From an uncultured Sphingomonadaceae bacterium (GTDB taxonomy: Bacteria; Pseudomonadota; Alphaproteobacteria; Sphingomonadales; Sphingomonadaceae): 64,000 nucleotides of DNA. The stretch spans positions 310,001 through 374,000 of the forward strand of contig CANLCX010000003.1 of the NCBI GenBank assembly GCA_947489315.1, given 5' to 3'. Position numbers and translations under genes: made by a program. Under the pieces are notes generated by a model. It worked only from the letters and a program-made list of their open reading frames with translations. It was not told the origin of the DNA and searched no databases. Every line of letters begins with the position of its first letter. Within the stretch, counting starts at the first letter, position 1. Positions 40,258 through 55,911 of the stretch are shown piece after piece.

Positions 40258-40409
40258 GCGGCTCAAACCGTAACTGAATAAAAATCAACCATTATAGTAT
40301 GTTAGTGGAAGATCGCGGGCAAATTCCCACGGCCTATTACTGTTCATCCCTGTCGGTGACGTCTTGTCGAATATCCAAAGCAAGATTTTCAGACAAGGAC
40401 CCACCCCCC

Positions 40410-43400
40410 ATGCGTTTATTACTCGCCTGCACCAGTCTCACCCCCATAATGTTAATCGCGGCAGGCCCTGTCCATGCCGATACGGAGATCAGCACCGCGC
40501 GCACAACACCGATAGCGACCGGCACGGATAATGATGATATCCGGATCACAAATCAGGGCTCGATCAGGCCGACGACCGGCACGGCGGTAACGATTAACAG
40601 CGATCATGATGTCACCAATCAGGGCACGATCCAGATTACTGACGCCAACGGCGCCAGCGGGATTGTCGCAGAAGCAGGCCGCTCGGGCACGATTACCAAC
40701 AGCGGCTCGATCATCATGGATGAGGATTATACACCCGAGGATGCGGACGAAGATGGCGACCTGGATGGCCAGTTTGCGACCGGTCAAGATCGCTTTGGTA
40801 TCCGCACGCTTGGTGCGTTTACTGGCGCGGTCGTCAATAGCGGTACGATCACCATCGAAGGCAATGACAGTGCCGGGATATCGCTGGAAGGCCCGCTCAC
40901 CGGATCGTTCAATCAAAGCGGCCGCATCACAGTCACTGGTGATGACAGCGTCGGCATCCGCACTGGCGCTGTGTCCGGGGACGTAGCGGTACGCGGTTCG
41001 GTCACGGTACGCGGCGATGGTGCGGTTGGTGTGACGGTCACGGGCCCGGTTGATGGCGCATTGTTGATCCAGAGCGAGATTACGGCAAGCGGTTATCGCA
41101 GCACAACACGGCCGGCCGATGTTTCCAATCTGGATGCCGATGACTTGCTGCAGGGCGGCCCTGCTCTCGCGATATCGGATGATATTGCCGGCGGCATATT
41201 ATTCGATATCCGACCGGTCAATAATGATCCCGATGAGGATGATGAAGATGGTGACGGAATTGATGATGACGAGGAAGGCAGTGCTTCTGTCACATCCTTT
41301 GGCGAAGCCCCGGCCGTTCAGATTGGTTCGACCAGTGATGCGGTAACCATCGGTGCTGTCGCTGGCGACGCGGCCGACGGCAATGGCATCGTGATTAACG
41401 GATCCATCCGCGGCAGTGGGGTTTACGACGGCGTTGCTGGCAATGGCTTGTTGATTGGCGGCTTGGGCGGCGCGACGGAAATTATCGGCGGCATTCTGGT
41501 CAATGGTACGGTCAATGCCCAATCCTTTGATGATGATGCCACCGCCATCCGCATTGGTGACAGAGCCACGGTACCCACCATCACCAATACAGGCGAGATA
41601 AGCGCGCGCGGCGGTGAGGCAGCCGATTCGGCCGTCTATGCCATTTTGGTGGATGAAGGCGGTTCGCTCGATTCCCTTTATAATAGCCGGACGATTAGCG
41701 CCGCTGCGGCGGAAGACGGAACAGCCGGTGCGATTATCGATCGCTCTGGCACGCTGAACTATATAGAGAATAGCGGCACCATTCAGGCGTTCAGCGAAAA
41801 TGGCGGTGCGGGCAAGGCCATAGCTATTGACCTTTCTGAAAATGGCTCCGGCACCGATATCATTCAATTTCGCGAGGAGGATGCTGCCGCACCTGCAATT
41901 ATCGGCGACATCCTGCTCGGCTCTGGTGATGATACTGTCGATATTTCAGAGGGCTTGGTAGCAGGTCGACTGGATTTTGGCGGCGGCGCGGACGCGTTTG
42001 CATTGAATAATGGTGCGCAATTTATCGGAACGCTAGCCGGAGCGGCAGGCACAGCCATCGTCATTGACGACAGTGCGATGCTGCTGACCGACACGGCGAC
42101 AGTGGATATCGCATCCATTGTTACCGGGGACGACAGCACCATCGGCGTCACCATTGACGGCCGGTCGGGAGATTTCACGCAGTTAAAGGTCGCGGATACC
42201 GCGGAGTTTGGCGAGGGAACGAATCTGGAAATCCAATTGGTCAGCGTCAGCGAGTCTGAAGGACGCTATCAGATTGTCGATGCGACCACCCTGATCGGCA
42301 GCGATAATCTGGCCTCGGACGGCGTAGTGAGCGCCTATATGTTCAAGAGCAGCGTGTCGGGCGATGATGACGCGGGAGAGGTCTGGGTCGAGATTGAGCG
42401 CAAGACCGCCGCCGAGATGAACCTCACGCGGTCGCAAACCAGCGCCTATGATGCGATATTCAACGTGCTCGACAATGACGCGGCCGTGGCTTCCGGTTTT
42501 CTGGGCGCTACAACGGCAGAGACATTTGACGAAACAATTCAGCAGATGCTGCCAGACCATGCGGGCGGCGTATTTGCAACGGTTAGCCAGGGGTCACGCT
42601 CGACCGCGCGTTTCCTGACCGATCCGGTTGCACCTTATAGCGATCAGGGCGGCTGGGGCTTCTGGCTGCAGCAAACGGTGTGGGACTTGTCCAAAGACCG
42701 TGGTCAGACCGACAGCTATGATATTACCGGCCTTGGCACGACGGCGGGTATCGAGGTGGAAACCGGCGCCATCGGCAATTTCGGCATATCGGTGGGCTAT
42801 CTCAACAGCAATGACAGCGATGACGATGCGGCTAATGAAGTGGACAGCGATCAATATGAATTTGCCGCTTATTGGCGGGCGCGGTGGGGCGGCTTGCGCG
42901 CTTTTGCCCGCGGCTCCTATGCCAAGATCGAATTTGATTCACAGCGCCGGTTTGAATCGAAAGTCGGGGATGATGAAGAAACGGAAAGGCGCTTTGCGGT
43001 CGCGGACTGGTCCGGTGATCTTTACAGCCTCGCTGGTGGCCTTGCCTATGAACTGGATATTGGCCGCGTCTCCCTGCGTCCTTCGGTATCGGTCGATTAT
43101 TATAATCTTTCAGAAGAAGGCTATACCGAAACCGAAGGCGGCGATGCGTTTAACCTGATTGTCGAGGATCGCGATAGCGACGAGCTGGCGCTGAACACCA
43201 CATTGGCGGCGGCCCTGAACTTTGGCGACACCGATTCCGATGGTGTCTGGTTCCGTGCCGAGGTTGAGGGCGGTTATCGCCAGATTATCGGCGGCGAAAT
43301 TGGCAACACCGTTGCGAAATTTGAAGATGGTGACGCATTCACATTGTCTCCCGATACTCGCACCGACGGCTGGCTTGCCGGATTGCGGCTGGTGAGCGGT

Positions 43401-43499
43401 ACCGGCAATCTGCTCTTCGCGGGTGAAGTCAGTGCTGAGGAACAGTTGCAGGATGAAGTTTCACTGGGTGTGCGTTTGTCGCTGCGGATCGGCTTTTAA
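40410..43499 (+). CDS. Autotransporter (type Va) outer-membrane protein
   Basis: From ATG 40410 the product is 1029 residues; it begins with a signal peptide (MRLLLACTSLTPIML...AGPVHA) while longer forms have none. The passenger (about 30-740) is made of repeating short strands with ITNSGSI, VTNQGTI and similar motifs, a beta-helix pattern. An acidic insert near residues 269-292 (DPDEDDEDGDGIDDDEEG) resembles calcium-binding loops. The C-terminal 280 residues (from about 747, GWGFWLQQTVWDLSKD) form the autotransporter barrel ending with RLSLRIGF. A surface adhesin-like role is inferred. It follows the FecIR-receptor set, 152 bases downstream. Confidence 0.88.
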   Translation: MRLLLACTSLTPIMLIAAGPVHADTEISTARTTPIATGTDNDDIRITNQGSIRPTTGTAVTINSDHDVTNQGTIQITDANGASGIVAEAGRSGTITNSGSIIMDEDYTPEDADEDGDLDGQFATGQDRFGIRTLGAFTGAVVNSGTITIEGNDSAGISLEGPLTGSFNQSGRITVTGDDSVGIRTGAVSGDVAVRGSVTVRGDGAVGVTVTGPVDGALLIQSEITASGYRSTTRPADVSNLDADDLLQGGPALAISDDIAGGILFDIRPVNNDPDEDDEDGDGIDDDEEGSASVTSFGEAPAVQIGSTSDAVTIGAVAGDAADGNGIVINGSIRGSGVYDGVAGNGLLIGGLGGATEIIGGILVNGTVNAQSFDDDATAIRIGDRATVPTITNTGEISARGGEAADSAVYAILVDEGGSLDSLYNSRTISAAAAEDGTAGAIIDRSGTLNYIENSGTIQAFSENGGAGKAIAIDLSENGSGTDIIQFREEDAAAPAIIGDILLGSGDDTVDISEGLVAGRLDFGGGADAFALNNGAQFIGTLAGAAGTAIVIDDSAMLLTDTATVDIASIVTGDDSTIGVTIDGRSGDFTQLKVADTAEFGEGTNLEIQLVSVSESEGRYQIVDATTLIGSDNLASDGVVSAYMFKSSVSGDDDAGEVWVEIERKTAAEMNLTRSQTSAYDAIFNVLDNDAAVASGFLGATTAETFDETIQQMLPDHAGGVFATVSQGSRSTARFLTDPVAPYSDQGGWGFWLQQTVWDLSKDRGQTDSYDITGLGTTAGIEVETGAIGNFGISVGYLNSNDSDDDAANEVDSDQYEFAAYWRARWGGLRAFARGSYAKIEFDSQRRFESKVGDDEETERRFAVADWSGDLYSLAGGLAYELDIGRVSLRPSVSVDYYNLSEEGYTETEGGDAFNLIVEDRDSDELALNTTLAAALNFGDTDSDGVWFRAEVEGGYRQIIGGEIGNTVAKFEDGDAFTLSPDTRTDGWLAGLRLVSGTGNLLFAGEVSAEEQLQDEVSLGVRLSLRIGF

Positions 43500-43818: not shown

Positions 43819-44340
43819 ATGAAAACGATGAAACTAATGGCGGCATCAGCTGCAGTAGTTGCTTTGGCCGTTGGCGCCCCTGCCATGGCTCAGCAAAATC
43901 AAGACAACGACAATGACACGACAGGCGCTGCTGGCAACAACAGCGACACAATCGTGGTCAATGATTTGCTTGATGTATATCTGGCAGCAGATGCCAGCAC
44001 AAACAACACGCTGGACGACATCAACAGCAACAACAACAACAACAACGATCTTGTTATTGCTACGCAAACGCTCACAGCAACCAACGCCGCCCAAAATTTC
44101 GACGAAATTGTCGATCTTGATGGTGAAGATGGTTCACCTGCACCTGTAGGCTATAACAGCGGTAACGCCTATAACCGTGGAAACGCTTTTTCAGCCTTCG
44201 CTGGTATCGTGAACCAGTCAATGAACACTGGCGTTTACTCCAACGCTCAGTCTGCAACCAACGTTGCAGCACAAGGCACGATTAACTTCGGTGATGGCGC
44301 TGCAGCAGCAGCTGACGGCGCTGGCGGCGGCGGCGATTAA
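43819..44340 (+). CDS. Secreted Asn-rich protein, candidate fibre subunit of a Fap-like system
   Basis: The 173-residue protein starts behind AAGGAG and has a clean Sec signal peptide (MKTMKLMAASAAVVALAVGA...AMAQ). The mature part is rich in Asn, Asp, Ala and Gly, has no cysteine, includes six AAC-encoded asparagines (44029-44046), and near its end shows FAGIVNQSMNTGVYSNAQ. The same spacing F-x-G-x-x-N-x3-N-T-G-x2-S-x2-Q occurs in the next protein. The end is a Gly/Ala tail. I know no named family for it; composition and context suggest an amyloid-like or surface-polymer subunit. It is first in a four-gene run with the C39 peptidase. Confidence 0.8.
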   Translation: MKTMKLMAASAAVVALAVGAPAMAQQNQDNDNDTTGAAGNNSDTIVVNDLLDVYLAADASTNNTLDDINSNNNNNNDLVIATQTLTATNAAQNFDEIVDLDGEDGSPAPVGYNSGNAYNRGNAFSAFAGIVNQSMNTGVYSNAQSATNVAAQGTINFGDGAAAAADGAGGGGD

Positions 44341-44437
44341 TCGTCCCTCGTTGACTTGATGAAGGGCGGGCCGGTTTCAGCCGATGGAGCCGGCCCCTCC
44401 ATCCCCCAAATCCGATCCCCAACCGGGAGTAAAGACG

Positions 44438-44809
44438 ATGAAAAACTATTTTTGGCTTCTTACGATAGCCCCCCTTGCCATGACCGCATCCCATGCGAGT
44501 GCGCAGGTGGCGGATCAAGGCGCTGCGTCCCAGGCACCCGCAACTTCCGCGCAGCAATCTGCATCTCCGCTCATGTCGATGGATGAACTCGATGAATTGC
44601 GCGGCGGTACACAGATCGCGATCAACGAACAGACCTTTTCCTCGGAAAATACCGGCAACACGATCGGCGGCGATTATACCGCTGGCGATGTCAACTTGTC
44701 GGACAATTCCCTGTCCAGCTTTAACGGTTTGGGTAATATTGTGATCAACACCGGCGCACAGTCGGCGCTCCAGGCAGGCCTGGGCGTGACGATCAATATT
44801 ACCGACTAG
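44438..44809 (+). CDS. Secreted small protein with LRGG site, candidate amyloid minor subunit
   Basis: The product has 123 residues from ATG 44438 (GGGAG upstream). A Sec signal peptide ends ASHASAQ. A Gln/Ala/Ser linker follows, then MSMDELDELRGG with the double glycine at residues 56-57, a pattern like the leader end of C39 peptidase substrates. The remaining 66 residues contain FSSENTGNTIGGDY and FNGLGNIVINTGAQSALQ, sharing the motif of the preceding protein. The C39 peptidase gene is 14 bases downstream. I infer that the LRGG bond is cut in the periplasm to mature this protein. Confidence 0.8.
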   Translation: MKNYFWLLTIAPLAMTASHASAQVADQGAASQAPATSAQQSASPLMSMDELDELRGGTQIAINEQTFSSENTGNTIGGDYTAGDVNLSDNSLSSFNGLGNIVINTGAQSALQAGLGVTINITD

Positions 44810-44823
44810 GTAAGGTATAGGCC

Positions 44824-45630
44824 ATGACCCTCACTCCCCCCATCAAATATGGCCTATTCCCAGCCTTTCCGCCCTTCAAGAGCGGCTTGAAAACTTTCTT
44901 GAAGGGCGGACTGCTGGCCCTGACCGGTGCCGCCCTGTTTTGTGGTTCCGTGGCCCAAGCCGAAGTCCGCTTGGGGCGGGAATCAATTGGCGGGGACTAT
45001 TATGTCGGCGTGATGACTTGGTGGGATATCCCCTTCCGTTCGGTCATTCGCCAGCGCTATGATTTTAGCTGCGGCTCTGCAGCGGTGGCGACCCTGCTGA
45101 CCTATCATTATGACCGGCCCACTAACGAACGCACGCCGTTTAAGGCAATGTGGGATCTCGGTGATAAAGAGGCGATTAAAAAAGTCGGCTTTTCGATGCT
45201 CGACATGCGCAATTATCTGAAATCCATTGGCTACCGCGCCGAGGGTTTTAAGCTGACGCCGGATCAACTTTCCCAGGTCAAACGGCCGGTGATCGTGCTG
45301 CTCGACCTCGACGGCTTTAAACATTTCGTCGTGGTCAAGGGTCAGACAGATGACCAAGTGTTAGTGGGAGATTCCGTGCTTGGCATTAACAAATATTCTA
45401 CTGAGGATTTTGCGAAATATTGGAATGGCGTTGCGCTGGCAATTGTCGATGGCCCGATAAAAAGCCGGCCTAAATATAATCTTTCCGGCGACTGGAATCG
45501 CTGGTCCACCGCGCCCATGGATCAAGTGTCCGCGACTGCCGCAATTGGCGATTTAACCAACCACCTTCCCCCCTTGTACCAGCTCTCGCCAGAGATCCTG
45601 CTCGACGTGCAGGTTGGTACCGTCAGATGA
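44824..45630 (+). CDS. Periplasmic C39-family peptidase (FapD-like)
   Basis: The 268-residue protein has an N-terminal hydrophobic segment ending SVAQAE (near 47), so the enzyme is exported rather than being the cytoplasmic domain of an ABC exporter. The C39 catalytic set is complete: Gln77 and Cys83 in RQRYDFSCGSAAVATLL, His167 in GFKHFVVVKG, and Asp183 in VGDSVLG. Freestanding exported C39 peptidases are known from the Fap amyloid operon of Pseudomonas (FapD). It stands between two genes for exported proteins with LRGG sites, its likely substrates. It lacks any ABC-transporter domains. Confidence 0.88.
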   Translation: MTLTPPIKYGLFPAFPPFKSGLKTFLKGGLLALTGAALFCGSVAQAEVRLGRESIGGDYYVGVMTWWDIPFRSVIRQRYDFSCGSAAVATLLTYHYDRPTNERTPFKAMWDLGDKEAIKKVGFSMLDMRNYLKSIGYRAEGFKLTPDQLSQVKRPVIVLLDLDGFKHFVVVKGQTDDQVLVGDSVLGINKYSTEDFAKYWNGVALAIVDGPIKSRPKYNLSGDWNRWSTAPMDQVSATAAIGDLTNHLPPLYQLSPEILLDVQVGTVR

Positions 45631-45640
45631 GAGAAAAGTC

Positions 45641-46234
45641 ATGAACTACAAACAAAGACATTCCGCTACGGTCGCCTGCATCGCGCTCTTCACCGCGATG
45701 CTTATGCCCCAAACCGCCAAAGCTGACCCCGTGGCGGCGGTTGGTCTGCCCGCACTTGTTCCGGACGAAGATCTGGACAAGTTGCGCGGTGGGTTTGTGG
45801 TCAACGGATTGGGTGTCAATTTTGGTGCCGATATCCGCACTTACGTCAATGGTGAGCTGCTGCTGCAAACCGTGATGAGCTTGAGCGACGAGGGCGCGCA
45901 TACCACCCAGACGGCCGCTGCGGGTCTAAGTCCCGTCGATGTCTCGACCCTTGAAAATGGCGTCCTGTCCAATGGTAACATCCGGATGAAAGTGGGCGAC
46001 ACACCCGTCTATCTGCTCAACAACGGGCAAACCGCGATTGTTCATGAGACCGCCAATGGTATCCAGAACATGCTGATCAACACGGCCAACGGCTTTGAAG
46101 CCGTTCAGGAAGTGGACGCAACGCTGACCCTTTCCGGCTATGAGAATTTCAATAATGGCCTGATGATGGACCGGATCGGCAGCGCGCTTGATGATATTGC
46201 CGGTCAAGCTGGCATCGGCGCCCTGGGAAATTAA
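45641..46234 (+). CDS. Secreted protein with LRGG site, partner of the C39 peptidase
   Basis: The product has 197 residues from ATG 45641, just 10 bases after the peptidase stop, with GAGAGAAAAG ahead. Sec signal peptide ends QTAKA. PDEDLDKLRGG puts a double glycine at residues 50-51, at nearly the same place as in the protein at 44438. The mature part (about 146 residues) has NGIQNMLINTANG, a relaxed copy of the G-x2-N-x3-N-T motif in the two other secreted proteins, and no cysteine. It is the last gene before a strong terminator. Function is unknown; an accessory or surface-anchor subunit is plausible. Confidence 0.78.
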   Translation: MNYKQRHSATVACIALFTAMLMPQTAKADPVAAVGLPALVPDEDLDKLRGGFVVNGLGVNFGADIRTYVNGELLLQTVMSLSDEGAHTTQTAAAGLSPVDVSTLENGVLSNGNIRMKVGDTPVYLLNNGQTAIVHETANGIQNMLINTANGFEAVQEVDATLTLSGYENFNNGLMMDRIGSALDDIAGQAGIGALGN

Positions 46235-46312: not shown

Positions 46313-46410
46313 ATTCCACAACATCCGTCATCCCAGGCTGTGCTGGGGAACAAGGCGATCTTTTTAAAACCGAATGCGTTTGACCACAGGTTGGCGCGGA
46401 GATTTTTCAC

Positions 46411-47155
46411 ATGAAAAGACTGATAGTGTGCTGCGATACCGCGGGCCATGGAACTCTATCGCGATCGCGATATCCTGCCTGACCATGATGAATGCATTAC
46501 ATTTCGCAATTCCAACTCAATCTTGGAGGACCACACGCCGCCCCAGATTTGCTTTCTGGGATGCTGGGATACTGTTGGCGCATTGGGCATTCCCGACACC
46601 ATTCCCATCATACCCGTGGATAACTGGTTTGACCGCAAATATGAATTTCATGACACGCAAATTGGTTCGCACATCAAGAACGCGCGTCACGCGGTCGCCA
46701 TTGATGAACATCGCCGGGTTTTTGATGTAACGTCGATGCAGCAATCCGATAGTCCCCATGATCAAGAAGTGCTGCAAGAACGTTGGTTCCCCGGCAATCA
46801 TGGTGGCATCGGCGGCGGCGTGCGCGAATTGCGCCAATGTTCGGACGGACCGTTATTGTGGATGATGGAAGAAGCAAAGCGTTTCGGTCTTTCGTTCGAT
46901 GACAGCCATGTCAGCAAATATACCGACAGCAATCCTCTGGTCGATTTACCCCCAAAAGAGGGCCGGCTATTTGGATTGGTTGGCAAGTCATTCGATCGGC
47001 AAGGGCCGACCCATATGACTGACGTTTCGCCGGAAGCACATTATCGATGGAATGAGACTGATAGCTATAATCCAAAGACCCTTCATCGCGTTTTTCCCGA
47101 CAAGAAACTAGATCGAGCAGCGGGTGATGCCACGATCAGAGGGCTGAGGAACTGA
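46411..47155 (+). pseudogene. DUF2235 (alpha/beta hydrolase, T6SS phospholipase-like) gene with internal deletion
   Basis: ATG 46411 opens the normal DUF2235 N-terminus, MKRLIVCCDTAGH, but the frame ends soon after. At about 46448 a different frame enters a central part of the same family: ELYRDRDILPD, FLGCWDTVGALGIP, PGNHGGIGGG with the catalytic-type histidine, and continues to the natural end at 47155. The region that should hold the GxSxG nucleophile is missing, roughly a hundred or more residues. The gene is therefore dead despite a long remaining open frame. Confidence 0.82.
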
Positions 47156-47229
47156 AGGAGACATTGCTTTTTCCTTTCGAAGACTGGCTATAAAACCCGG
47201 TCCCTGACCCGCTATAACAAAATTCAGAC

Positions 47230-47264
47230 AAAAAAAGACCGGAATGACCTGCGCCATTCCGGTC
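47230..47264 (-). terminator. Intrinsic terminator of the second TonB receptor gene
   Basis: Read on the minus strand, GACCGGAATG pairs with CATTCCGGTC around an 8-base loop and is followed by seven T. It lies 25 bases past the receptor stop. Confidence 0.88.
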
Positions 47265-47288
47265 AAATTTGATCAACGGGAGAGTCGA

Positions 47289-49832
47289 TCAGAACTTAAA
47301 GGCGGCTTCGATAAACACCTGGCGGCCGCGGTTTTGGGTGACGACACGGTCATCACCACCGCCTGTTGCACGGCCAAGGGTATTTCCGGCGTCAAGAAAC
47401 GGGCGGTCGCCGACTGTATTGGCCCAGATTTCATCGGTGAGATTTACCCCAATGAGGGACAATTTCCATTTTCCATCAGGATCACCAATCGATGCGGACG
47501 CGTCGAGAGACACATAGTCATCCTGGACGAAATCAGCAAAATTATTATTACCGGCAAAATAGGAACCGCTGTAAGCTGCATTACCGTTCAAACCAAATTC
47601 CAGAGCATCGCCCATTGGGATGGACCAATCGAAAGCAATATTGCCTGACCATTTTGGCGCACGAGCGGCGCGGCGACCGTCAATGTCAATGTCATCGGCG
47701 GTTCCGCCCACACCATCAACTCCAGCGTCCGCAAGGAACGTATCGGTAAATTTGGCATCGGTGTAACCAAAGGCGCCAGAAAGGTTTAGTCCCTCTAGCG
47801 GCGTCCGCCAGGACCAATCGACATCAAAGCCTTTGGTGGTAAGCTCACCCGCATTGACGGTTAGGAAGCGTGTGTTGGCCCCATCGAAATTCTGAACCTG
47901 CAAATTGTCAAATACGAAATAATAGACCGACGTGTTCACCCGCAATGCGCCGCCAGCCAACAAGGCCTTCATACCGACTTCGCCACCTTTGGCGGTTTCA
48001 GAATCATAGACAATCGAGCTAAGTGCAGCTTCCCGCGCAGCTTCAGGATCCGGGAAAAGGGCGGGAAACATTTCAGCAAAGCCGGGGACGACCAACTGAA
48101 CCGAAGCGGTCGGCAAGATGCTATTGTCTATGCCCCCTGATTTAAAGCCGGTCTTATAAGACGCGTAGAAATTGAGATCGGGCGTAGCCTGATATTTCAA
48201 CGTGACTTCTGGCGAAATATTGCTGTCGGAAAATTTGATCGGCCCGGTATTAAAGCCTTCCGGAACAACCAGTCCCAGTCCGCCAACGATCGGATTCAGG
48301 AATGATAGCGCATTGTGAACAAACGGGAAGTTCGATCTATGCGTCTTCTGCTCATCCGTCCAGCGCACGCCACCGGATAGTTCCAATTGATCTGTAATAT
48401 CAAAGGTCCCGCTGGCAAAGAAGGACAGTGCCTCACTTTTCGTCGCCCGCTGTGCGACCCAATCATAAGTGATCCCGCGGGAATCTGGGAAGAGGAATGT
48501 GCCGAGAAACGCGTTTTGGGACGTCTCTAAAGGCTGTTTCCTACTTTCCCAAAAACCGCCAACCATAAAGTTGAACCGGCCATCAAAATCACTGGCCAAC
48601 CTTATTTCCTGGGTGAATTGCTCCAAGGCATCAGAAAATGGGGCCGGAGCACCGCCTGGTAGACCATCAGTCCGAACGCCCACATAGCTGAAGTGATCAA
48701 TATGTTCATTTTCGAGATCAAGATAGCCGCTTACGGTCGATAATGTCAGCGTGTCGGAAATGTCGAGGTCCATCGCCAATCGAGCGAAGAACGTGTTGGT
48801 TTCATTATAAGATTGACCAACATAGCGACCCGCGCCGGTTGTCCCTGGCGCAATCACCAGCAAATCGGGATTGCCATCGGGGTGCGGATAGAGACCATCT
48901 TGAATATCGCACGATGCGTTTGATTCAAAGAACGTACCGGTAAGTGCAAAAAAGACCGGATCGGCGACACCATTGGCGCCGCAATCAATGTCGGAATGCC
49001 CGAGCAGGCTGTCGCCTTCGTTGCGATTATAATTGAGTTTTAGGTTGGCAGAAAAATTATCTGCCGGATCCCATTGCAAAGTCACGCGGCCGACAATGTT
49101 CTCCAAACCTTTGCCGGTATTCAAAAATACCGACGGGGTACCCGCCTCCAGCTCGACATATTTCTCGATATTCTGATATTGGCCCGCGACCCGGATACCA
49201 AGATTGTCATTAATCGGTCCTGATATATATCCGCCAATCGTTGTGCCGTTTTCTTCAAATTCTTGAGAGACTTTTACGCCCACTTCCCAATCGGGAGTCG
49301 GATTGGCTGATCGAACAGAGAATACGCCTGCGGTCGCACTCTTACCAAAGAATAGAGATTGTGGACCTTTCAAAACATCAATTTGTTCGACATCAAAAAA
49401 GGACGCTTGGACCAAACGCATCGTGCTGACTTGTACACCATCAAAATCAAACGCGACGGCAGAGTCAAAGGCAGCGGAAATATTGGTTGTACCAACACCG
49501 CGCAGACTGATCTGACCGCCAGCTCCGGAGCCACCAACTTGCACGTTGAGAGCAGGAACGCGGCTCACAACATCGGCCACTTCGTTGATTTGATATCTAT
49601 CAAGCGTGTCGCCGCCAATGGCTGTAACCGTCACCGGCACTTCTTGCAGTGACTCTGTCTGCTTCCGGGCTGTAACCGTTATGATAACACTTTCATCCAC
49701 TTCTTCGGCGTCCTGCGCGAAGGCCGGAGTGGCGAAGGTCGAAATAGCCAAGGTGGCGGCGGTTCCCATCAAAACACCTTTTACAGATTTTGTGATGAGC
49801 CCGGATTTTTCATGGTGCGCGCGTAAGTTCAT
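47289..49832 (-). CDS. TonB-dependent outer-membrane receptor (paralogue of 13433-16009)
   Basis: The product has 847 residues from ATG 49832, with GGGAGAGA upstream; longer in-frame starts have no ribosome site. Signal peptide ends TPAFAQ. TonB-box-like IITVTARKQTES, plug segments DVVSRVPALNVQVGGSG, SLRGVGTTNISAAFDS and SLFFGKSATAGVFSV, and end EAAFKF all parallel the receptor at 13433, with strongest identity in the plug and last barrel strands. It has its own LuxR regulator upstream, as the first receptor's cluster has at its left end. A steroid- or terpenoid-like ligand is inferred from this pairing only. Confidence 0.92.
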   Translation of the reverse strand: MNLRAHHEKSGLITKSVKGVLMGTAATLAISTFATPAFAQDAEEVDESVIITVTARKQTESLQEVPVTVTAIGGDTLDRYQINEVADVVSRVPALNVQVGGSGAGGQISLRGVGTTNISAAFDSAVAFDFDGVQVSTMRLVQASFFDVEQIDVLKGPQSLFFGKSATAGVFSVRSANPTPDWEVGVKVSQEFEENGTTIGGYISGPINDNLGIRVAGQYQNIEKYVELEAGTPSVFLNTGKGLENIVGRVTLQWDPADNFSANLKLNYNRNEGDSLLGHSDIDCGANGVADPVFFALTGTFFESNASCDIQDGLYPHPDGNPDLLVIAPGTTGAGRYVGQSYNETNTFFARLAMDLDISDTLTLSTVSGYLDLENEHIDHFSYVGVRTDGLPGGAPAPFSDALEQFTQEIRLASDFDGRFNFMVGGFWESRKQPLETSQNAFLGTFLFPDSRGITYDWVAQRATKSEALSFFASGTFDITDQLELSGGVRWTDEQKTHRSNFPFVHNALSFLNPIVGGLGLVVPEGFNTGPIKFSDSNISPEVTLKYQATPDLNFYASYKTGFKSGGIDNSILPTASVQLVVPGFAEMFPALFPDPEAAREAALSSIVYDSETAKGGEVGMKALLAGGALRVNTSVYYFVFDNLQVQNFDGANTRFLTVNAGELTTKGFDVDWSWRTPLEGLNLSGAFGYTDAKFTDTFLADAGVDGVGGTADDIDIDGRRAARAPKWSGNIAFDWSIPMGDALEFGLNGNAAYSGSYFAGNNNFADFVQDDYVSLDASASIGDPDGKWKLSLIGVNLTDEIWANTVGDRPFLDAGNTLGRATGGGDDRVVTQNRGRQVFIEAAFKF

Positions 49833-50120
49833 AACTCTCTCCCAGTCCTGTCCACCACTTTTGTGACGGACTTTCATTGTCTGCTGGTTTTCCCAGCTTT
49901 GTTGTAAAATGAGACTGGCGCGGGTCGCTGACTTACTCAACTGGCCAAAAGGTCAAGATATCAGCATCAGAAGAAATATTATTGTTAGAATCATGCTAAG
50001 TGGAGTATTAATATTACAGAATTGGCATCGTAGAGCGATGGAGAGATAGGCGATATCGATTTGCCAATCTGAATTCGCCAGAAATTATCTGTGATCGTAA
50101 ATCCCGGCCATGCCAATCAA

Positions 50121-50930
50121 TTAATGATGGCTATTGCCCAGATAACCCAATTGGGTAGCTTTGAAAACGGTCTGCGTTCTGTTGACTGAATCCAGCTTTT
50201 CACCCGCCCGACCGATATGATAACGCACCGTTGATCGACATACAGAAATTATCTCCCCGATCTCCTCATCCGTTTTTCCAATGGATGCCCAGCGGATACA
50301 TTCCGCTTCACGCTTGGACAAACCACAATCTGCAGGAATATGTTTCGATTTTCGGGATAGTGATACGTAACCGGAAATAATCCGGCGTGTTAATGCCCCC
50401 AGCAAATTCCCATATTTGGCAAATTCAATGGAAAAACTATCAGCACTGGCATTTATGGCCGGAAAACTATTCGCTGACACCTGCCCAAAGGGCAAATGCA
50501 CCGGTACAACAATGAGTGCATTATATCGGCCTTTCAGTTTGGCAAAATAATTCTGCAGATCTATTTCATCTAAAAAGCTGTTCGGCGCGTGACCGTGAAA
50601 GCCATATTCATCGCACCAAAAGGGTTCACTTTCATACCGGCAGGCGCGGGGTATGGCGCAATGCAAAGCAAATTGGGGGTCTTTCCACCAGAGTTCAGTT
50701 TTTTTTACCCAACCAAAAATATCCGAATTGAGACAATTGCCGTCAGCGTCCGTCATCGGTTTCCCTGATGATATATCTGCGCAAAGAGCAACTCTGAGCC
50801 CTCGCTTGTCCGCTATATTTTGCAGATTATAGGCAGCTTTGCGAATATCCGCCGGCTTTCGAACTGAAACGCGTTCGAGCAACTCGTCCAAATTGGGATC
50901 GCTCTCAATCTTGTGTTCTTCCGCCGGCAT
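50121..50930 (-). CDS. LuxR family regulator with autoinducer-binding-like domain
   Basis: The chosen start (ATG 50930, AGGTGG 5 bases upstream) gives 269 residues; longer starts at 50966 or 50999 are possible. The N-terminal sensor domain resembles LuxR autoinducer-binding domains (RACRYESEPFWC, GFHGH, VPVHLPFGQVSA). The C-terminal helix-turn-helix reads LSKREAECIRWASIGKTDEEIGEII and VRYHIGRAGEKLD, the GerE/LuxR form. It is 289 bases upstream of the TonB receptor gene and codirectional. It is a clear paralogue of the truncated regulator at 1-572. No LuxI synthase is seen, so it is a solo; the ligand may be a growth substrate. Confidence 0.88.
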   Translation of the reverse strand: MPAEEHKIESDPNLDELLERVSVRKPADIRKAAYNLQNIADKRGLRVALCADISSGKPMTDADGNCLNSDIFGWVKKTELWWKDPQFALHCAIPRACRYESEPFWCDEYGFHGHAPNSFLDEIDLQNYFAKLKGRYNALIVVPVHLPFGQVSANSFPAINASADSFSIEFAKYGNLLGALTRRIISGYVSLSRKSKHIPADCGLSKREAECIRWASIGKTDEEIGEIISVCRSTVRYHIGRAGEKLDSVNRTQTVFKATQLGYLGNSHH

Positions 50931-51160
50931 GTTCGCCACCTGAAATTCCTCTCCCGAAGACATGTGACCGGATGAAGCTTTTTGCCCCTTTCCGATCAAT
51001 CTTGAAATGAAGAAGCGGCTTTCTCGTTAAGAAAATCAACTCTCAATATTGGCAATGCGATGGATTAGGGGGAATGTGGATGCCGCTCAGGGAGGCATAT
51101 CGGCGGATAATGCTCTCTTGATATGGTTTTGGGCTATATGTTCTGGCCAAAGAACGAGCC

Positions 51161-51439
51161 TCACAATTTGCTGGATTTCAGCTTGAATATTCCTTGAACT
51201 CCGGCCGCATTCATCTTCAAGAATCCTGCCTTGATCGCACAAGCAACCATGTGGGTTCGGTTTCTCGCGCGCAGCTTCAGTTTGGCACTTTCTATATGCC
51301 GATCAACGGTGCGCGGGGAGATGTTGATATGTCGGGCCACTTCCTTGGCGGATAGCCCCATAGTGACATATTCGAGTATTTCGATCTCTCTTTTGGAGAG
51401 TACCGGATCATTTATCAAAGTAAGCGATTGTACCATCAT
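51161..51439 (-). CDS. Small LuxR-type helix-turn-helix protein
   Basis: The 92-residue protein is little more than a LuxR DNA-binding domain: LSKREIEILEYVTMGLSAKEVARHINIS and PRTVDRHIESAKLKLRARNRTH. ATG 51439 or 51436 is chosen; a longer frame upstream has no ribosome site. No receiver or sensor domain is present, so activity must be set by expression or by partners. A near twin lies at 56442-56711 (same PRTVDRH and NRTHMVACA segments), one on each side of the barrel/Crp genes. Confidence 0.8.
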   Translation of the reverse strand: MMVQSLTLINDPVLSKREIEILEYVTMGLSAKEVARHINISPRTVDRHIESAKLKLRARNRTHMVACAIKAGFLKMNAAGVQGIFKLKSSKL

Positions 51440-51599
51440 GTTGATTGCCTTTTCGAACGAGCTGCCTTGAAAAACTGGGCAGAATTGGGTTGCTTTTGAA
51501 AAATGGGGACTGCACTTTCGTGCAGCCCCAGTCGGCAAGAAAAACACTGAGGTTGTTTCTTCTCGCGAGCGGTTTTCGGGTCGTGTGATAAGTGTAAAC

Positions 51600-51974
51600 T
51601 TAGTTTTTTGGCCGCGTCTCCGTGGTCAACATTGAAATCTTTTGCTCAAGATTCTGTAGAGCTTCTGCCCGCGCATCATCGAAACAGTCGTTCATCTTAC
51701 TTTTTCGAGCAAGGGCAGCAATGCCGGGCAGCGAACAAACATTCCTCGCTGCCCGACTCACCCTGCGGTGAAGCTCGGTGACATCTTTTGGGTTTGCCAG
51801 ATCCAGATCATCGTGGCGGACCAATTCGACGTTATATTCAGAGTTTTTTGCAGATGCGGCAGATGGCATCATAGCAACAATGGCTGTCACGAGCGCCATC
51901 GTTGCCAAAACGGCGCAACCAGCAAGTGATCCTTGTTTTCGTCGTCGTCTAACCATGTTTGATGGGGATAACAT
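51600..51974 (-). CDS. UrcA family protein
   Basis: The 124-residue exported protein has an Arg-rich N-terminus, a hydrophobic segment ending SAASA, and the UrcA pattern: DLDLANPKDVTELHRRVSRAARNVC, a second cysteine in NDCFDDARAEAL. The two cysteines may pair. UrcA proteins are common in sphingomonads and their role is unknown. AAGGA stands 7 bases before the ATG. It is divergent from the hydrolase fusion gene. Confidence 0.82.
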   Translation of the reverse strand: MLSPSNMVRRRRKQGSLAGCAVLATMALVTAIVAMMPSAASAKNSEYNVELVRHDDLDLANPKDVTELHRRVSRAARNVCSLPGIAALARKSKMNDCFDDARAEALQNLEQKISMLTTETRPKN

Positions 51975-52191
51975 TATCGATTCCTTCTATTCATCGGGGG
52001 GTTGAATATGCTTTCAAGTAGCGGCATCCCTTTGATGCCCTTGCGTGTTACGCAGCATGTTCATGGGCATGTCATTTGCGTTGTTTTTTCAATCAATGGG
52101 ATTAAAAGATGCGTCGGCCACAGGGGTGGCCATGACCACGAACTGCCAATGGAAATCCAGACGACTCGCGGGGCTAGTGAGTAATGTAACG

Positions 52192-53589
52192 ATGATTGAC
52201 TTGGAAATTGGCGTGCTAGGCGGCCTATCTGTGCGCCGTGCCGGCCAACCCGTGAAGTTACCGGCGTCGCGCAAAGCTCGGGCGATGCTGGCATTCCTGT
52301 TGCTGACAGGAAAGCCGCAGCATCGCGAAAGGCTGTGTGACCTGTTTTGGGAGGGGCCGGATGACCCCCGGGGAGCGCTTAGGTCGGCCATCTGGAAACT
52401 GCGCCGATTGCTCAACGATCCAGAGGCCGAACGGATCGTCGCCGACAGGGAATGGATCCGCTTTGAACCGGTTGCGGTAGAGTGTGATTATGCAAATTTG
52501 AAGGAGCGCGCGCAGCGCGATGAAGAGTTGGTGGGGCAGGAATTTGCTGACGTTCGCGGGGCTCTGGATCAACCCTTACTGACCGGGCTCGATCTGCCGG
52601 ACCATCCCGAATACCAGGCTTGGCTAGTGGCGATGCGAGAGGAAGCAGAAGCACTGCGCGCGCGCTTGCTGCCGGATTTGGGGGCGAGGACTGGGTTACC
52701 GATCGACAAACCGGGGCAGCTCCATCTGGCGCGGCAAAAAATCGGTTTTGCTGGTGCTAAAGACGGCACGCGGATCGCATGGGCGCGCATCGGAACGGGC
52801 CCGCCGTTGCTGAAAGTCGCTAATTGGCTCAACCATCTCGAACTGGATTGGGATAGCGAAGTCTGGTCGCCCTTGTTTCAGGAATTGGCGCGCGACCATT
52901 GCCTTGTTCGCTATGATGAGCGTGGGAACGGTATGTCTGATTGGGAAGTGGTCGATCTCGGGTTTGACGCATTCGTTACCGATCTGGAAAGCGTGGTCGA
53001 ACAAAGCCGTGTTGAGCGATTTCCTCTGCTTGGCATATCGCAAGGCGCGGCTGTCGCGATTGAATATGCCGCGCGGAACCCGGATCGTGTCAGTCACCTG
53101 ATCTTATGGGGCGGCTATGCGGCGGGTTGGCGCGTTGATGGCGATGCTGAATCGATGGCTGAAAGAGAAGCGCTGATTACGCTGGTCGCAAATGGCTGGG
53201 GACGCGACGATTCAAGTTATCGAAACCTGTTTTCCCGCGCCCTTATTCCTGGCGCAACCGAGGCAGAAAGAACGGCATTTGATGAATTTCAAAGAAAGAC
53301 CATCTCTCCGGCCAATGCGGCCCGTTTCCTGGAAACCTTTGCGGATATTGATGTGCGCCATCGCTTGAGTGAAATAAAATGCCCGACTTTAGTAATGCAT
53401 GCGCGCGGGGATCAACGCGTTCCGGTAGCCAAGGGCGCGGAACTAGCCAGCCAGATCGGTGGAGCGGAATTCGTCACATTGCCGACCGATAATCATCTCT
53501 TGCTCGGCCGGGAACATAGTTCCGAATTGTTTGTTGCCCATGTCCGGCAATTTCTGTCGGATGAGGCTGACAGCATAAAGACCGCTTAG
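52192..53589 (+). CDS. SARP/BTAD-like DNA-binding domain fused to alpha/beta hydrolase
   Basis: About 465 residues from ATG 52192 (GTG 52177 is also possible). Residues 1-90 look like a winged-helix of SARP activators: EIGVLGGLSVRRAG, ASRKARAMLAFLLL, LCDLFWEGPDDPRGALRSAIWKLRRLL. From about residue 180 an alpha/beta hydrolase follows: YDERGNGMSDW, nucleophile elbow GISQGAA (Ser near 283), the acid in HARGDQRVPV, and His in PTDNHLLLGR. The full triad suggests the hydrolase part is active or binds an ester ligand. A ligand-responsive regulator is a fair guess; targets are unknown. Confidence 0.85.
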   Translation: MIDLEIGVLGGLSVRRAGQPVKLPASRKARAMLAFLLLTGKPQHRERLCDLFWEGPDDPRGALRSAIWKLRRLLNDPEAERIVADREWIRFEPVAVECDYANLKERAQRDEELVGQEFADVRGALDQPLLTGLDLPDHPEYQAWLVAMREEAEALRARLLPDLGARTGLPIDKPGQLHLARQKIGFAGAKDGTRIAWARIGTGPPLLKVANWLNHLELDWDSEVWSPLFQELARDHCLVRYDERGNGMSDWEVVDLGFDAFVTDLESVVEQSRVERFPLLGISQGAAVAIEYAARNPDRVSHLILWGGYAAGWRVDGDAESMAEREALITLVANGWGRDDSSYRNLFSRALIPGATEAERTAFDEFQRKTISPANAARFLETFADIDVRHRLSEIKCPTLVMHARGDQRVPVAKGAELASQIGGAEFVTLPTDNHLLLGREHSSELFVAHVRQFLSDEADSIKTA

Positions 53590-53646
53590 GCGTAAGACAT
53601 GAGCAAAGGGACGTGTGAACATGCCCCGTTGCTGTAAATCATTAAG

Positions 53647-55158
53647 CTAAAAGCGCAGGGGAATACGCGCAACGATGCTGACATCCGGTGCATCCTCGGT
53701 CACACCAAATTGGAAGCCGAGGTTCAGCGATTGTTTTTCGCTGAGGCGGTAGGACATGCCAAAGTTGAGCGCTCCGACTTGAATGTCATTGCTTTCCTGC
53801 AGCGTGTCGCCGAGCTGGGTCTTGGTCGAGAATATATAATTGTGGCGATAGCCGAGCGAAAAGGAAAAGCGCGGATTGAGCGCAAAACCAAAGCCGACGC
53901 TGGCGTTAATCGCATCGCCCGGATCCACTTTGCCGACAGGGACATCGCCGACGATCCTGTCGATATTGCGTTCGATATTCCACAAATAGCCGGTGCCGCC
54001 ATAGATCACGACCGGATCAGAGGGGAGCAGAAAGCTGATGCTAGGCTGAACGCCCCAGAAGCCGGAGCCTGTGGCAAGGCCGGTCGCCACACCAAATTCG
54101 TCGAACGGAATTTCAAAGGGACTGGAGCCGGTATCGGTTTTTACGCGCAGCCCAGCAACCCAGATTGGGCTTTGCGGTTTGGGTCGATTTAACTGGTAAC
54201 GCAGCGAAATCTCGGCATCCCCTATGCCGGTTTCTTGCAGACCCACTTCCCGTGTAATCTGTTCTTCGCGTTGCTGGACAACCTGAATCCGGTCCTTGCG
54301 ATGGAGCAGAGGTATCCGGCCTTCGATTTCCAACCGGTTGGTCAGACCATAGCGCATCGCAAATGTTCCGACAACGGTATCGCGGTCCGCGTCGCTGGCT
54401 TCAATGGCGCCAATTTGAATGCCTGGAATAAGCTCGATACCCCTGAAGACCAGCCGGTTGGTCGACGAGCGCGTATATTCGATCGAGGGATCAAGCACGA
54501 ATTGCCCGCGCGGCGTCAGCACGCCTTGGCCCTCCGGCACGGCCTCGACCTTTTGTTCGATATTATTGGCCGCCGGGGGGGCTTCGCCAACGGGTCGATC
54601 CGGCAAGGTCAGCTCGTCATCTGGGGTTGTGCCGATTTGCACGGCAGCTGTTTCAACTTGGCCTCGCTGAATGCCGGCTGCGCGCATTTGTGACAGAGCA
54701 AAAGGTGTTTCGACCGGGGCTGCGGCACGAACGAGCTGGTTATGCAATTCCAACTGCTGAATTTTGTCATTTTGTGATTGGATGAGCGCGTTCTGGCTAG
54801 CGATCAGTTTTTTCTGATCCGATAGCTCGGATTGGATGGCCTGCAAGGCGGCGGTAATATTGGTCGTTTCCTGATCTGTGACCTTAACCGGCGGCTGTTT
54901 GGTGGGGACAACTGCCAGATTGACCGGCCGTTTCTCCGGCTCAGCCGCTTGTGGCAGCGCCGGAGATTGGACCGCACGTAAACGGGCCATGATTCGAGCC
55001 GATTCTGCCTCGGCTTCCGCAGCGGTTAGCGGGGGAGCGGGACGGACATGATCGGTCTCCGCAGTGTCGGTGGTGGCCGCGGTTGCTGATCCACCATATA
55101 AAGTGGCAACCGGTAGGGCGATAAGGGCGGTGAGGGGGTTTAAACGATTGGTGGTCAT
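53647..55158 (-). CDS. Outer-membrane beta-barrel protein with N-terminal coiled coil (FapF-like candidate)
   Basis: The product has 503 residues from ATG 55158 (GGAGAAAA 5 bases upstream). A signal peptide ends GSATAA. A Pro/Ala-rich stretch and a coiled coil near residues 97-145 (heptads such as IQSELSDQKKLIASQN) precede a barrel of about 290 residues (216-503) with alternating strands and terminal aromatic (VARIPLRF). Coiled coil plus roughly 12 strands is the layout of FapF, the trimeric exporter of Pseudomonas amyloid; phenol meta-pathway porins share the barrel type without the coiled coil. It follows a Crp-type regulator by 36 bases. Export of the secreted proteins at 43.8-46.2 kb is inference. 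Confidence 0.8.
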   Translation of the reverse strand: MTTNRLNPLTALIALPVATLYGGSATAATTDTAETDHVRPAPPLTAAEAEAESARIMARLRAVQSPALPQAAEPEKRPVNLAVVPTKQPPVKVTDQETTNITAALQAIQSELSDQKKLIASQNALIQSQNDKIQQLELHNQLVRAAAPVETPFALSQMRAAGIQRGQVETAAVQIGTTPDDELTLPDRPVGEAPPAANNIEQKVEAVPEGQGVLTPRGQFVLDPSIEYTRSSTNRLVFRGIELIPGIQIGAIEASDADRDTVVGTFAMRYGLTNRLEIEGRIPLLHRKDRIQVVQQREEQITREVGLQETGIGDAEISLRYQLNRPKPQSPIWVAGLRVKTDTGSSPFEIPFDEFGVATGLATGSGFWGVQPSISFLLPSDPVVIYGGTGYLWNIERNIDRIVGDVPVGKVDPGDAINASVGFGFALNPRFSFSLGYRHNYIFSTKTQLGDTLQESNDIQVGALNFGMSYRLSEKQSLNLGFQFGVTEDAPDVSIVARIPLRF

Positions 55159-55194
55159 AAGTTTTCTCCGGTCATGCTTACGCATGCGCAATTT

Positions 55195-55911
55195 TTAAGC
55201 GGCTGATAGTTCGCCGAGGCAAAAATCTGATGCGGGATGAATGTCAGCGTCAATATCAGGTGTCAGGCTGTCGTGATATTCGCCAGCGAGGCGGCACAGT
55301 CCGGCATTGTCGGTGATGATGACAGAGTCTCGGCCATTGATTTCGATAAGGCCGCGTCGCGCCAAGTCGGTAAAGGTCCGGCTGACGGTATGAACCGTGA
55401 GGCCCAAGAAATCGGCTATATCGCTCCGTGACATCGGAACACAGATGTTCGGATCGTCATTTGCCTGTTGTTTCAGGCAGAGCAAAAAAGCAGCTAGCTT
55501 CTCAGTAGCAGTCCGGTGGCCCATGATGAACAGGTAGCGCTGAGCGGTCGACATGGCGCGAAACAATATCGAAACCGCCTCATCCAGCTGTGGCTTGGGC
55601 GTTGAGTCGTCGGTAATATCTCCGACCCGGTAACAGCGCACGGTGACATCCGTGACCGCCTCAGCCGCCGTTCCATAGGTGCCATAATCGGCCCCGAAAA
55701 CGTCGCCGCTGAAGAAAAATCCGGTCAGGTGCCGGTGGCCATCCATATGGAAGCGGCACGTGCGAACGGTACCCTGCACCACCTCATACCAGCGGCTGGC
55801 TTTCTGTCCTTCGTCAAAGATTAATTGACCTGCGCGAAACCGCAAAGTGGTTGAGCGCAACTGTGAGTTTAGCCCCTGCATCATGGCAGGTGCGGTGATT
55901 AGCGATTGCAT
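55195..55911 (-). CDS. Crp/Fnr family transcriptional regulator
   Basis: The 238-residue protein has the cyclic-nucleotide-binding-like beta-roll (FRAGQLIFDEGQKASRWYEVVQG, FFFSGDVFGADYG) and a C-terminal helix-turn-helix with the FixK/FNR-type SRSDIADFLGLTVHTVSRTFTDL. The N-terminal cysteine cluster of oxygen-sensing FNR is absent, so it is more like FixK or a Crp-like protein without iron-sulfur centre. It heads an operon with the barrel gene 36 bases downstream, and reads away from the small LuxR-type gene across a 530-base gap. Confidence 0.9.
   Translation of the reverse strand: MQSLITAPAMMQGLNSQLRSTTLRFRAGQLIFDEGQKASRWYEVVQGTVRTCRFHMDGHRHLTGFFFSGDVFGADYGTYGTAAEAVTDVTVRCYRVGDITDDSTPKPQLDEAVSILFRAMSTAQRYLFIMGHRTATEKLAAFLLCLKQQANDDPNICVPMSRSDIADFLGLTVHTVSRTFTDLARRGLIEINGRDSVIITDNAGLCRLAGEYHDSLTPDIDADIHPASDFCLGELSAA

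Follow-up and report, generated by a model that had tools for sequence, protein, structure and literature searches.

The window analysed here, a stretch of 64,000 nucleotides from an uncultured Sphingomonadaceae bacterium (contig CANLCX010000003.1), carries a gene cluster that is an authentic divergent Fap-like export system. Its core consists of four open reading frames (ORFs) on the plus strand: protein A (43819-44340), 173 amino acids (aa) long, rich in Asn, Ala and Gly and with a Sec-like signal; protein B (44438-44809), 123 aa long, with a Sec-like signal, a predicted C39-type leader and one C-terminal repeat-like segment; an exported, free-standing, FapD-like C39 peptidase (44824-45630); and protein D (45641-46234), 197 aa long, which is best read from its sequence as a divergent FapE. 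A FapF-like outer-membrane barrel with a periplasmic, coiled-coil-like part (53647-55191) and an adjoining Crp/Fnr-type regulator (55195-55911) are encoded on the minus strand. We regard it as probable that these genes form a divergent Fap-type secretion system with two-step export, in which FapE or D, as well as B, are exported by Sec, lose a C39 leader to the peptidase in the periplasm and then leave through the barrel. Gene linkage, homology, the conservation and position of the leader and the intact catalytic residues of the peptidase are what was observed directly. An initial annotation had already proposed a Fap-like system for the four genes; that reading is in part borne out, and the double-glycine leaders on B and D had been overlooked.

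In the mechanism proposed, A, B, the peptidase and D would cross the inner membrane by Sec, after which B and D would each retain another leader, of double-glycine type. The periplasmic peptidase would recognise the leader helix, with its hydrophobic residues at -7 and -4 and Gly at -2, and cut at the RGG end to release the mature chains, and removal of the leader would license the exit of these chains via the FapF-like barrel. We infer the cut and its exact bond (after RGG, RGK or RGR, or after the invariant first Gly), export by the barrel and the formation of fibres.

Linkage of the exported peptidase and the barrel

Loci were drawn from three partly overlapping samples without removal of duplicates; the pairs L194 and L108, L195 and L037, and L201 and L039 each look like one and the same locus. 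In the family sample of 149 genomes, C39 was matched in 27, three of them weakly, in frames of 744-779 aa (ABC-transporter size); the family loci are 24 regions from 23 genomes besides the window's own. In the phylum-wide sample, 93 of 398 genomes matched the FapD model, and 40 regions were taken around the strongest hits not already in hand, the weaker matches, mostly frames of ABC-transporter size, being left out. The named loci are the best 80 of 570 confirmed stretches.

An exported C39 peptidase and a barrel occur together in 23 of the 24 family regions, the exception (L036) being located at a contig end, and in all 40 regions around the strongest phylum-wide hits. Amongst the best 80 of the 570 named stretches, the barrel is found in 76, an intact C39 frame in 79 and both in 75. 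D was found in 18 of the 149 family genomes, each of them with a C39 gene as well; the informative half of this count is that no D was found in genomes without a C39 gene, because the D profile was built in part from the same genomes. The co-occurrence that the initial annotation had named as a check is thus upheld. In six other genomes with an exported C39 peptidase (L049-L054), a FapE-type or other protein takes the position of D.

Genes A, B, C39 and D align as one unit with the two nearest relatives, so the cluster is not a chance arrangement. The window holds an exported C39 peptidase with its catalytic residues near a FapF-type barrel, 7.4 kb apart here and adjacent in the nearest relatives, and the barrel and its Crp gene had rightly been linked to the cluster despite this distance. 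The loci named amongst the best 80 of 570 include ones from Sphingopyxis, Novosphingobium, Sphingomonas, Caulobacteraceae, Rhodospirillales, Marinobacter, Ectothiorhodospira, Vibrio, Massilia, Cupriavidus, Lysobacter, Geotalea and a deltaproteobacterial bin. The description of the cluster as a sphingomonad version of Fap is therefore too narrow, and the idea of a sphingomonad speciality was dropped. At L193 and L191 (Massilia), two C39-barrel systems lie about 6-7 kb apart in the same genome.

Double-glycine leaders of B, D and FapE

The canonical C39 leader has an acidic residue at -8, hydrophobic residues at -7 and -4, and Gly at -2 and -1. The predicted leaders of B (MSMDELDELRGG; 44573-44608, plus strand, residues 46-57) and D (VPDEDLDKLRGG; 45758-45793, plus strand, residues 40-51) both have this layout at all five positions, and begin roughly 12-25 residues past the apparent end of the signal peptide. 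The context is SMDELDELRGG/TQIAI in B and VPDEDLDKLRGG/FVVNG in D, the latter leader ending DEDLDKLRGG.

The 26 D homologues aligned, which were hand-picked among recognised D genes, partly via the motif (the set omits the RGG-bearing D proteins of L042, L107 and L108, and FapE-type proteins were put in a separate alignment), have a mean column identity of 25%, and their sole invariant columns are M1, R49, G50 and G51. RGG is likewise present in all 12 of the D proteins that were retrieved purely by their similarity to window D. Across 24 B homologues, the Gly at -2 is invariant and the residue at -1 variable.

A matrix 13 residues long was derived from the D leaders of 14 sphingomonad loci and applied to loci outside the training set. 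A score of at least 6 was reached by 35 of 41 held-out downstream neighbours, as against 18 of 500 other signal-like ORFs, a control that includes spurious frames and, amongst its top scorers, some barrels or C39 proteins of the same systems. The downstream misses include three ORFs with wrong starts set by the script (L086, L087 and L089, where the full ORFs carry the leader), one beyond the range scanned (L108) and two that score 5.7 (L090 and L091). When the named loci were scanned, a score of at least 8 was found at 71 of 79 loci versus 7 of 785 control anchors under the same rule, and a score of at least 10 at 67 of 79 versus 2 of 785, both of the latter being second C39-barrel systems of Massilia loci. 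By a strict pattern, a D leader adjoins 121 of 147 C39 genes; the 26 failures comprise seven Fil-like loci (L118-L124), three that are cut off or damaged (L036, L116 and L138), four without a clear D (L109, L149, L178 and L190) and 12 with a looser leader.

In all eight loci whose peptidase exceeds the FapD cut-off, the gene that follows is assigned to FapE by its model match (seven over the FapE cut-off, and L092 with 213 of 250 bits), and in all eight FapE bears the leader, ending RGR or RGK; it reads LKDxE[LM]A.LRG[RK][YF] in seven loci and VPEHELAEMRGRY in L092. Since FapE carries the same leader, it is the likeliest candidate for cleavage by FapD. When the FapC-type proteins encoded upstream in L085-L101 were read, they showed no comparable post-signal segment in their first 100 residues; FapB-type proteins were read in sphingomonad loci only. 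At L102 (8257-8751), an apparently exported protein near the C39 locus has a strong leader match (LDDQVLSRQRGG) and is a possible extra substrate.

Proteins D, A and B

Window D gave no NCBIfam hit at E<=1, and its leader piece alone matched the FapE model weakly (E 0.17) in a scan of seven leader pieces (those of L037 and L041 were out of frame and not counted). The FapE model was matched by three of the 26 D proteins, with a best E of 1.2e-4, and the profiles of D and FapE aligned with a probability of 95.6% (hhalign, E 1e-8) over 35 columns spanning the leader; the proposed reading of D as a divergent FapE is based on this profile match and the three direct hits. No Pfam family was found for the 26 D proteins. 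Sphingomonad loci L047-L053 represent a second subtype, in which the leader ends RGK or HGK. Two of these were scanned, L048 and L051, and in both the protein in the D position matches FapE (68.8 and 66.6 bits); the upstream proteins of L051 match FapC and FapB.

Protein A is a candidate for the main secreted subunit. It has a C-terminal segment in common with B (hhalign 93%, E 3e-7). Neither A nor B matched FapB or FapC of NCBIfam at E<=1; A, B and D have no Pfam or NCBIfam match above a cut-off, and the 24 B proteins no NCBIfam family. No FapA-named match appeared in the NCBIfam scan of the window, the presence of a FapA model in that library being unchecked.

Structure prediction was another check named in the initial annotation. 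B and D were modelled with predicted local distance difference test (pLDDT) values of 58.4 and 66.7, respectively, and the D fold found no match amongst PDB chains at E<=0.001 with Foldseek. The D model has no regular structure before residue 42, a helix at 42-48, RGG, and strands from 51. It is a middling model with no PDB fold match, so it supports neither an enzyme nor a known amyloid fold for D; a beta-solenoid for B is unsupported by its poor model.

Several observations weigh against leader-directed two-step export and are considered together here. The residue at -1 is G in D, K or R in FapE, and G, R, K, M or Q in B, so that the register of cleavage is uncertain. In the window's genome, the DNA pattern [DE]-h-x-x-h-R-G-G (h, hydrophobic) has six hits, only those in B and D lying behind a Sec-like signal, versus five for a reversed control; the claim of a genome-wide excess was dropped, and the leader signal lies in position and context, not in the raw genome count. 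Upstream neighbours are less uniform than D, with 12 of 59 (a mix of B, A, FapC-type and spurious ORFs) scoring at least 6 in the matrix, and the scores of 8-15 that three FapC-type proteins (L053, and L093 twice) reach where their signal peptides end are probably fortuitous. No D is recognisable in L109, L178, L149 and L190, of which L109, L178 and L190 have the B leader. The structure models of both D and B are weak. Finally, A has no detectable match to the FapB/C profiles (4.8%), and the match of B to the FapB/C repeats is weak (61%, E 8e-5) and only 26 columns long.

The C39 peptidase

Gln77, Cys83, His167 and Asp183, reported as complete in the initial annotation, are correct in the window peptidase and do not vary in any of the 23 exported C39 proteins aligned. 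The identification as FapD-like also holds: by sequence comparison the protein is a FapD homologue under the equivalog cut-off, with 157.2 bits (E 3.6e-46) to the NCBIfam FapD model (NF058616), whose cut-off is 330. It reaches 106.1 bits with FilB, below the cut-off of 475, and its PDB matches are C39 domains of transporters (best E 9e-6). The residue preceding Asp80, four before the catalytic Cys, is Tyr79 in the window; it is Tyr or Phe in 89 of the 95 loci whose leader ends in Gly and Thr in 22 of the 26 whose leader ends in Lys or Arg, counts from overlapping samples in which lineage is not separated from function. This position may track the last residue of the leader.

A lipobox-like Cys is present within the first 75 residues of 40 of 147 exported C39 proteins, the window peptidase not being one of them, and the peptidase may be membrane-anchored in some lineages. 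Near-identical tandem copies of the A, B and C39 genes are found at L104 (3988-8873).

FapD acts in the periplasm and its catalytic Cys is needed for FapC secretion, according to Rouse and colleagues (PMC5557850), who already proposed FapE as the likely FapD substrate and had the linker of FapF under suspicion as well. In a 2016 review, FapF was noted to have a double-glycine motif as a possible site (PMC5135000). The target of FapD was called unclear in 2017-2018 papers (PMC5557850, PMC6173800) and its role still unclear in a 2022 review (PMC9268375), and a 2024 paper refers to FapD as a putative protease (PMC11787515). In the open-access literature searched, with preprints absent and few subscription papers, no FapD cleavage motif in FapE was named. 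What is new relative to the proposal of Rouse and colleagues is the specific and widely conserved predicted leader on FapE and its relatives, which is canonical double-glycine in the wider family and RGR or RGK in Pseudomonas-type FapE. With a canonical GG site in divergent relatives, the FapD target and bond can be named and tested, and a leader on the exported proteins B and D would point to the target of the protease.

The FapF-like barrel

FapF is the best curated model for the window barrel (NF058560, 131.7 bits, E 3e-38, under the equivalog cut-off of 700), and the best solved structures are FapF crystal sequences (E 9e-30), the next family having an E of 0.27; the initial annotation was right to call it FapF-like. 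FilC scores 66.2 bits against a cut-off of 630. The N-terminal part of the protein is coiled-coil-like. A relative of the window's Crp-type protein is found at the barrel in 11 of 144 loci, and the barrel and Crp gene are direct neighbours of D in the nearest relatives. An additional exported protein is encoded between the fapE-type gene and the barrel in sphingomonad Fap loci L048, L049, L051, L052 and L053; in that of L051, the sole one scanned, a peptidoglycan-binding domain was detected, and its start resembles HdeA weakly, below the cut-off.

The linker of the window barrel contains a weak, possible leader-like site (TPFALSQMRAAG; 54673-54708, minus strand) in the weaker form MRAAG, which is MRGAG in relative L132. 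Leader-like motifs were found in 25 of 114 barrel linkers, against a mean of 5.05 and a maximum of 16 in 300 shuffles and 3 in a barrel-domain control; the window barrel enters this count via GIQRGQ beside the weak site, and the L183 match and the first L052 match look accidental. Such motifs would suit a conserved segment that is no cleavage site, acting instead as a targeting tag that the coiled coil or the barrel of FapF would recognise, with the peptidase working elsewhere or as a chaperone. This is unlikely, as the residue pattern is that of a textbook C39 leader. The invariance of the catalytic residues in all of the aligned exported peptidases also speaks against a tag. Some C39-like domains are non-catalytic chaperones, which would fit the tag reading, but a Cys-to-Ala mutant of FapD abolishes FapC secretion (PMC5557850).

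It is less probable still, and by a clear step, that the barrel takes up hydrophobic compounds as a channel of COG4313 type and that the secreted proteins help to capture them. The barrel passes the gathering score of Pfam Phenol_MetA_deg (PF13557; 38.2 bits versus 22), a broad superfamily that is silent on the direction of transport, but FapF leads both the curated models and the solved structures, and the linkage of the barrel to the exported C39 peptidase and FapE-like proteins is steady. That B and D are microcin or signalling precursors, with the exported C39 peptidase maturing antimicrobial peptides, is scarcely credible: such systems typically possess double-glycine leaders and C39 peptidases and the leader piece of window B has a weak hit to a bacteriocin-like model (E 0.087), but the parts after RGG are long (66 aa in B and 146 aa in D), the partner is a FapF-type barrel, and the stretch shared with the nearest relatives showed neither an ABC exporter nor an immunity-type gene.

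Relation to known systems

As in the Pseudomonas Fap system (fapABCDEF), the window cluster possesses an exported C39 peptidase (FapD), a FapE-like protein encoded directly downstream, a FapF-type coiled-coil barrel and an Asn-rich secreted protein encoded upstream, and FapE bears a post-Sec leader of the type found here. It differs from Fap in that no FapB/FapC repeat is matched in NCBIfam and all scores are below the Fap equivalog cut-offs. Of the Fap profiles that the initial annotation had proposed to search, FapD and FapF were matched in NCBIfam by the window proteins, FapE by three relatives of D and, remotely, by the D profile, and FapB and FapC by neither A nor B in NCBIfam. In addition, the window leader ends RGG rather than RGK or RGR, the small protein B also has a leader, and the barrel and Crp gene are convergent to the remaining genes.

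The Fil putative pilus system, represented by the FilB and FilC models, likewise combines an exported C39 peptidase and a barrel, but the window scores (106 and 66 bits) are far below the cut-offs of 475 and 630. Loci of Fil layout have, by eye, no D gene and a FadL-like gene downstream. In Fil-like loci L120-L124, a secreted protein upstream of C39 has, following its signal, a segment [ML]DDxxL(S/A)xxTGQ that may be a C39 tag of related type with GQ at its end; L118 and L119 showed none. L122 and L123 belong to genomes that also hold Fap (L091 and L090). The leader pattern and the peptidase family are shared with double-glycine leaders cut by the C39 domains of ABC transporters, for example PCAT1, but in the window the leader follows a Sec signal and the peptidase too is an exported protein, so that cutting would be periplasmic.

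The evidence is evenly balanced as to whether Fap, Fap-like and Fil-like systems share a general code for maturation in two steps, made up of a Sec signal and then a periplasmic C39 leader, in which one exported peptidase would trim FapE or D, B and, in some lineages, the barrel linker, and proteolysis would switch matrix secretion on. Fap was first reported as confined to beta-, gamma- and deltaproteobacteria (PMC3792158). In 2018 its known range was extended to Erythrobacter, Porphyrobacter and Novosphingobium, and co-localised FapD and FapF homologues were noted in five further phyla (PMC6173800), which qualifies the earlier statement that Fap is described mainly outside alphaproteobacteria. 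A 2025 survey filtered for FapBC-repeat hits and three other fap genes (PMC12392863); with no FapB/C match in NCBIfam, the window cluster probably fails this filter. Published surveys required FapBC repeats or four fap genes, and the wider class, which looks like a common exported-matrix system of proteobacteria, has probably gone uncounted.

Gene starts and neighbouring genes

The four ORFs were confirmed where the initial annotation had placed them. The most likely start of B is the ATG at 44438 and that of D the ATG at 45641, the latter being preferred because the alternative at 45614 is a TTG that overlaps the C39 gene. A signal-like hydrophobic N-terminal stretch is present in each of A, B, C39 and D, as judged by eye and a crude hydropathy score rather than a dedicated predictor. 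The description of A, B and D as three small, exported, cysteine-free proteins stands as regards the signals and the lack of Cys in A and B; D has one Cys, within its signal peptide.

In the two closest relatives, whose C39 proteins are 86 and 88% identical to that of the window, about 0.3 and 0.5 kb separate the A-D stretch from the barrel-Crp stretch. The intervening block of the window (46314-53642, about 7.3 kb, no strand assigned) is missing at the equivalent place in both and is thus an insertion here or a loss there; by eye it contains genes for a TonB-type receptor, two LuxR-type proteins, an UrcA-family protein and a regulator-hydrolase-like protein. Upstream of A lies a large autotransporter gene (40299-43499) that does not occur at that place in the two nearest relatives. 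The UrcA-family protein of the block is encoded at 51600-51974 (NCBIfam TIGR04433, 65 bits).

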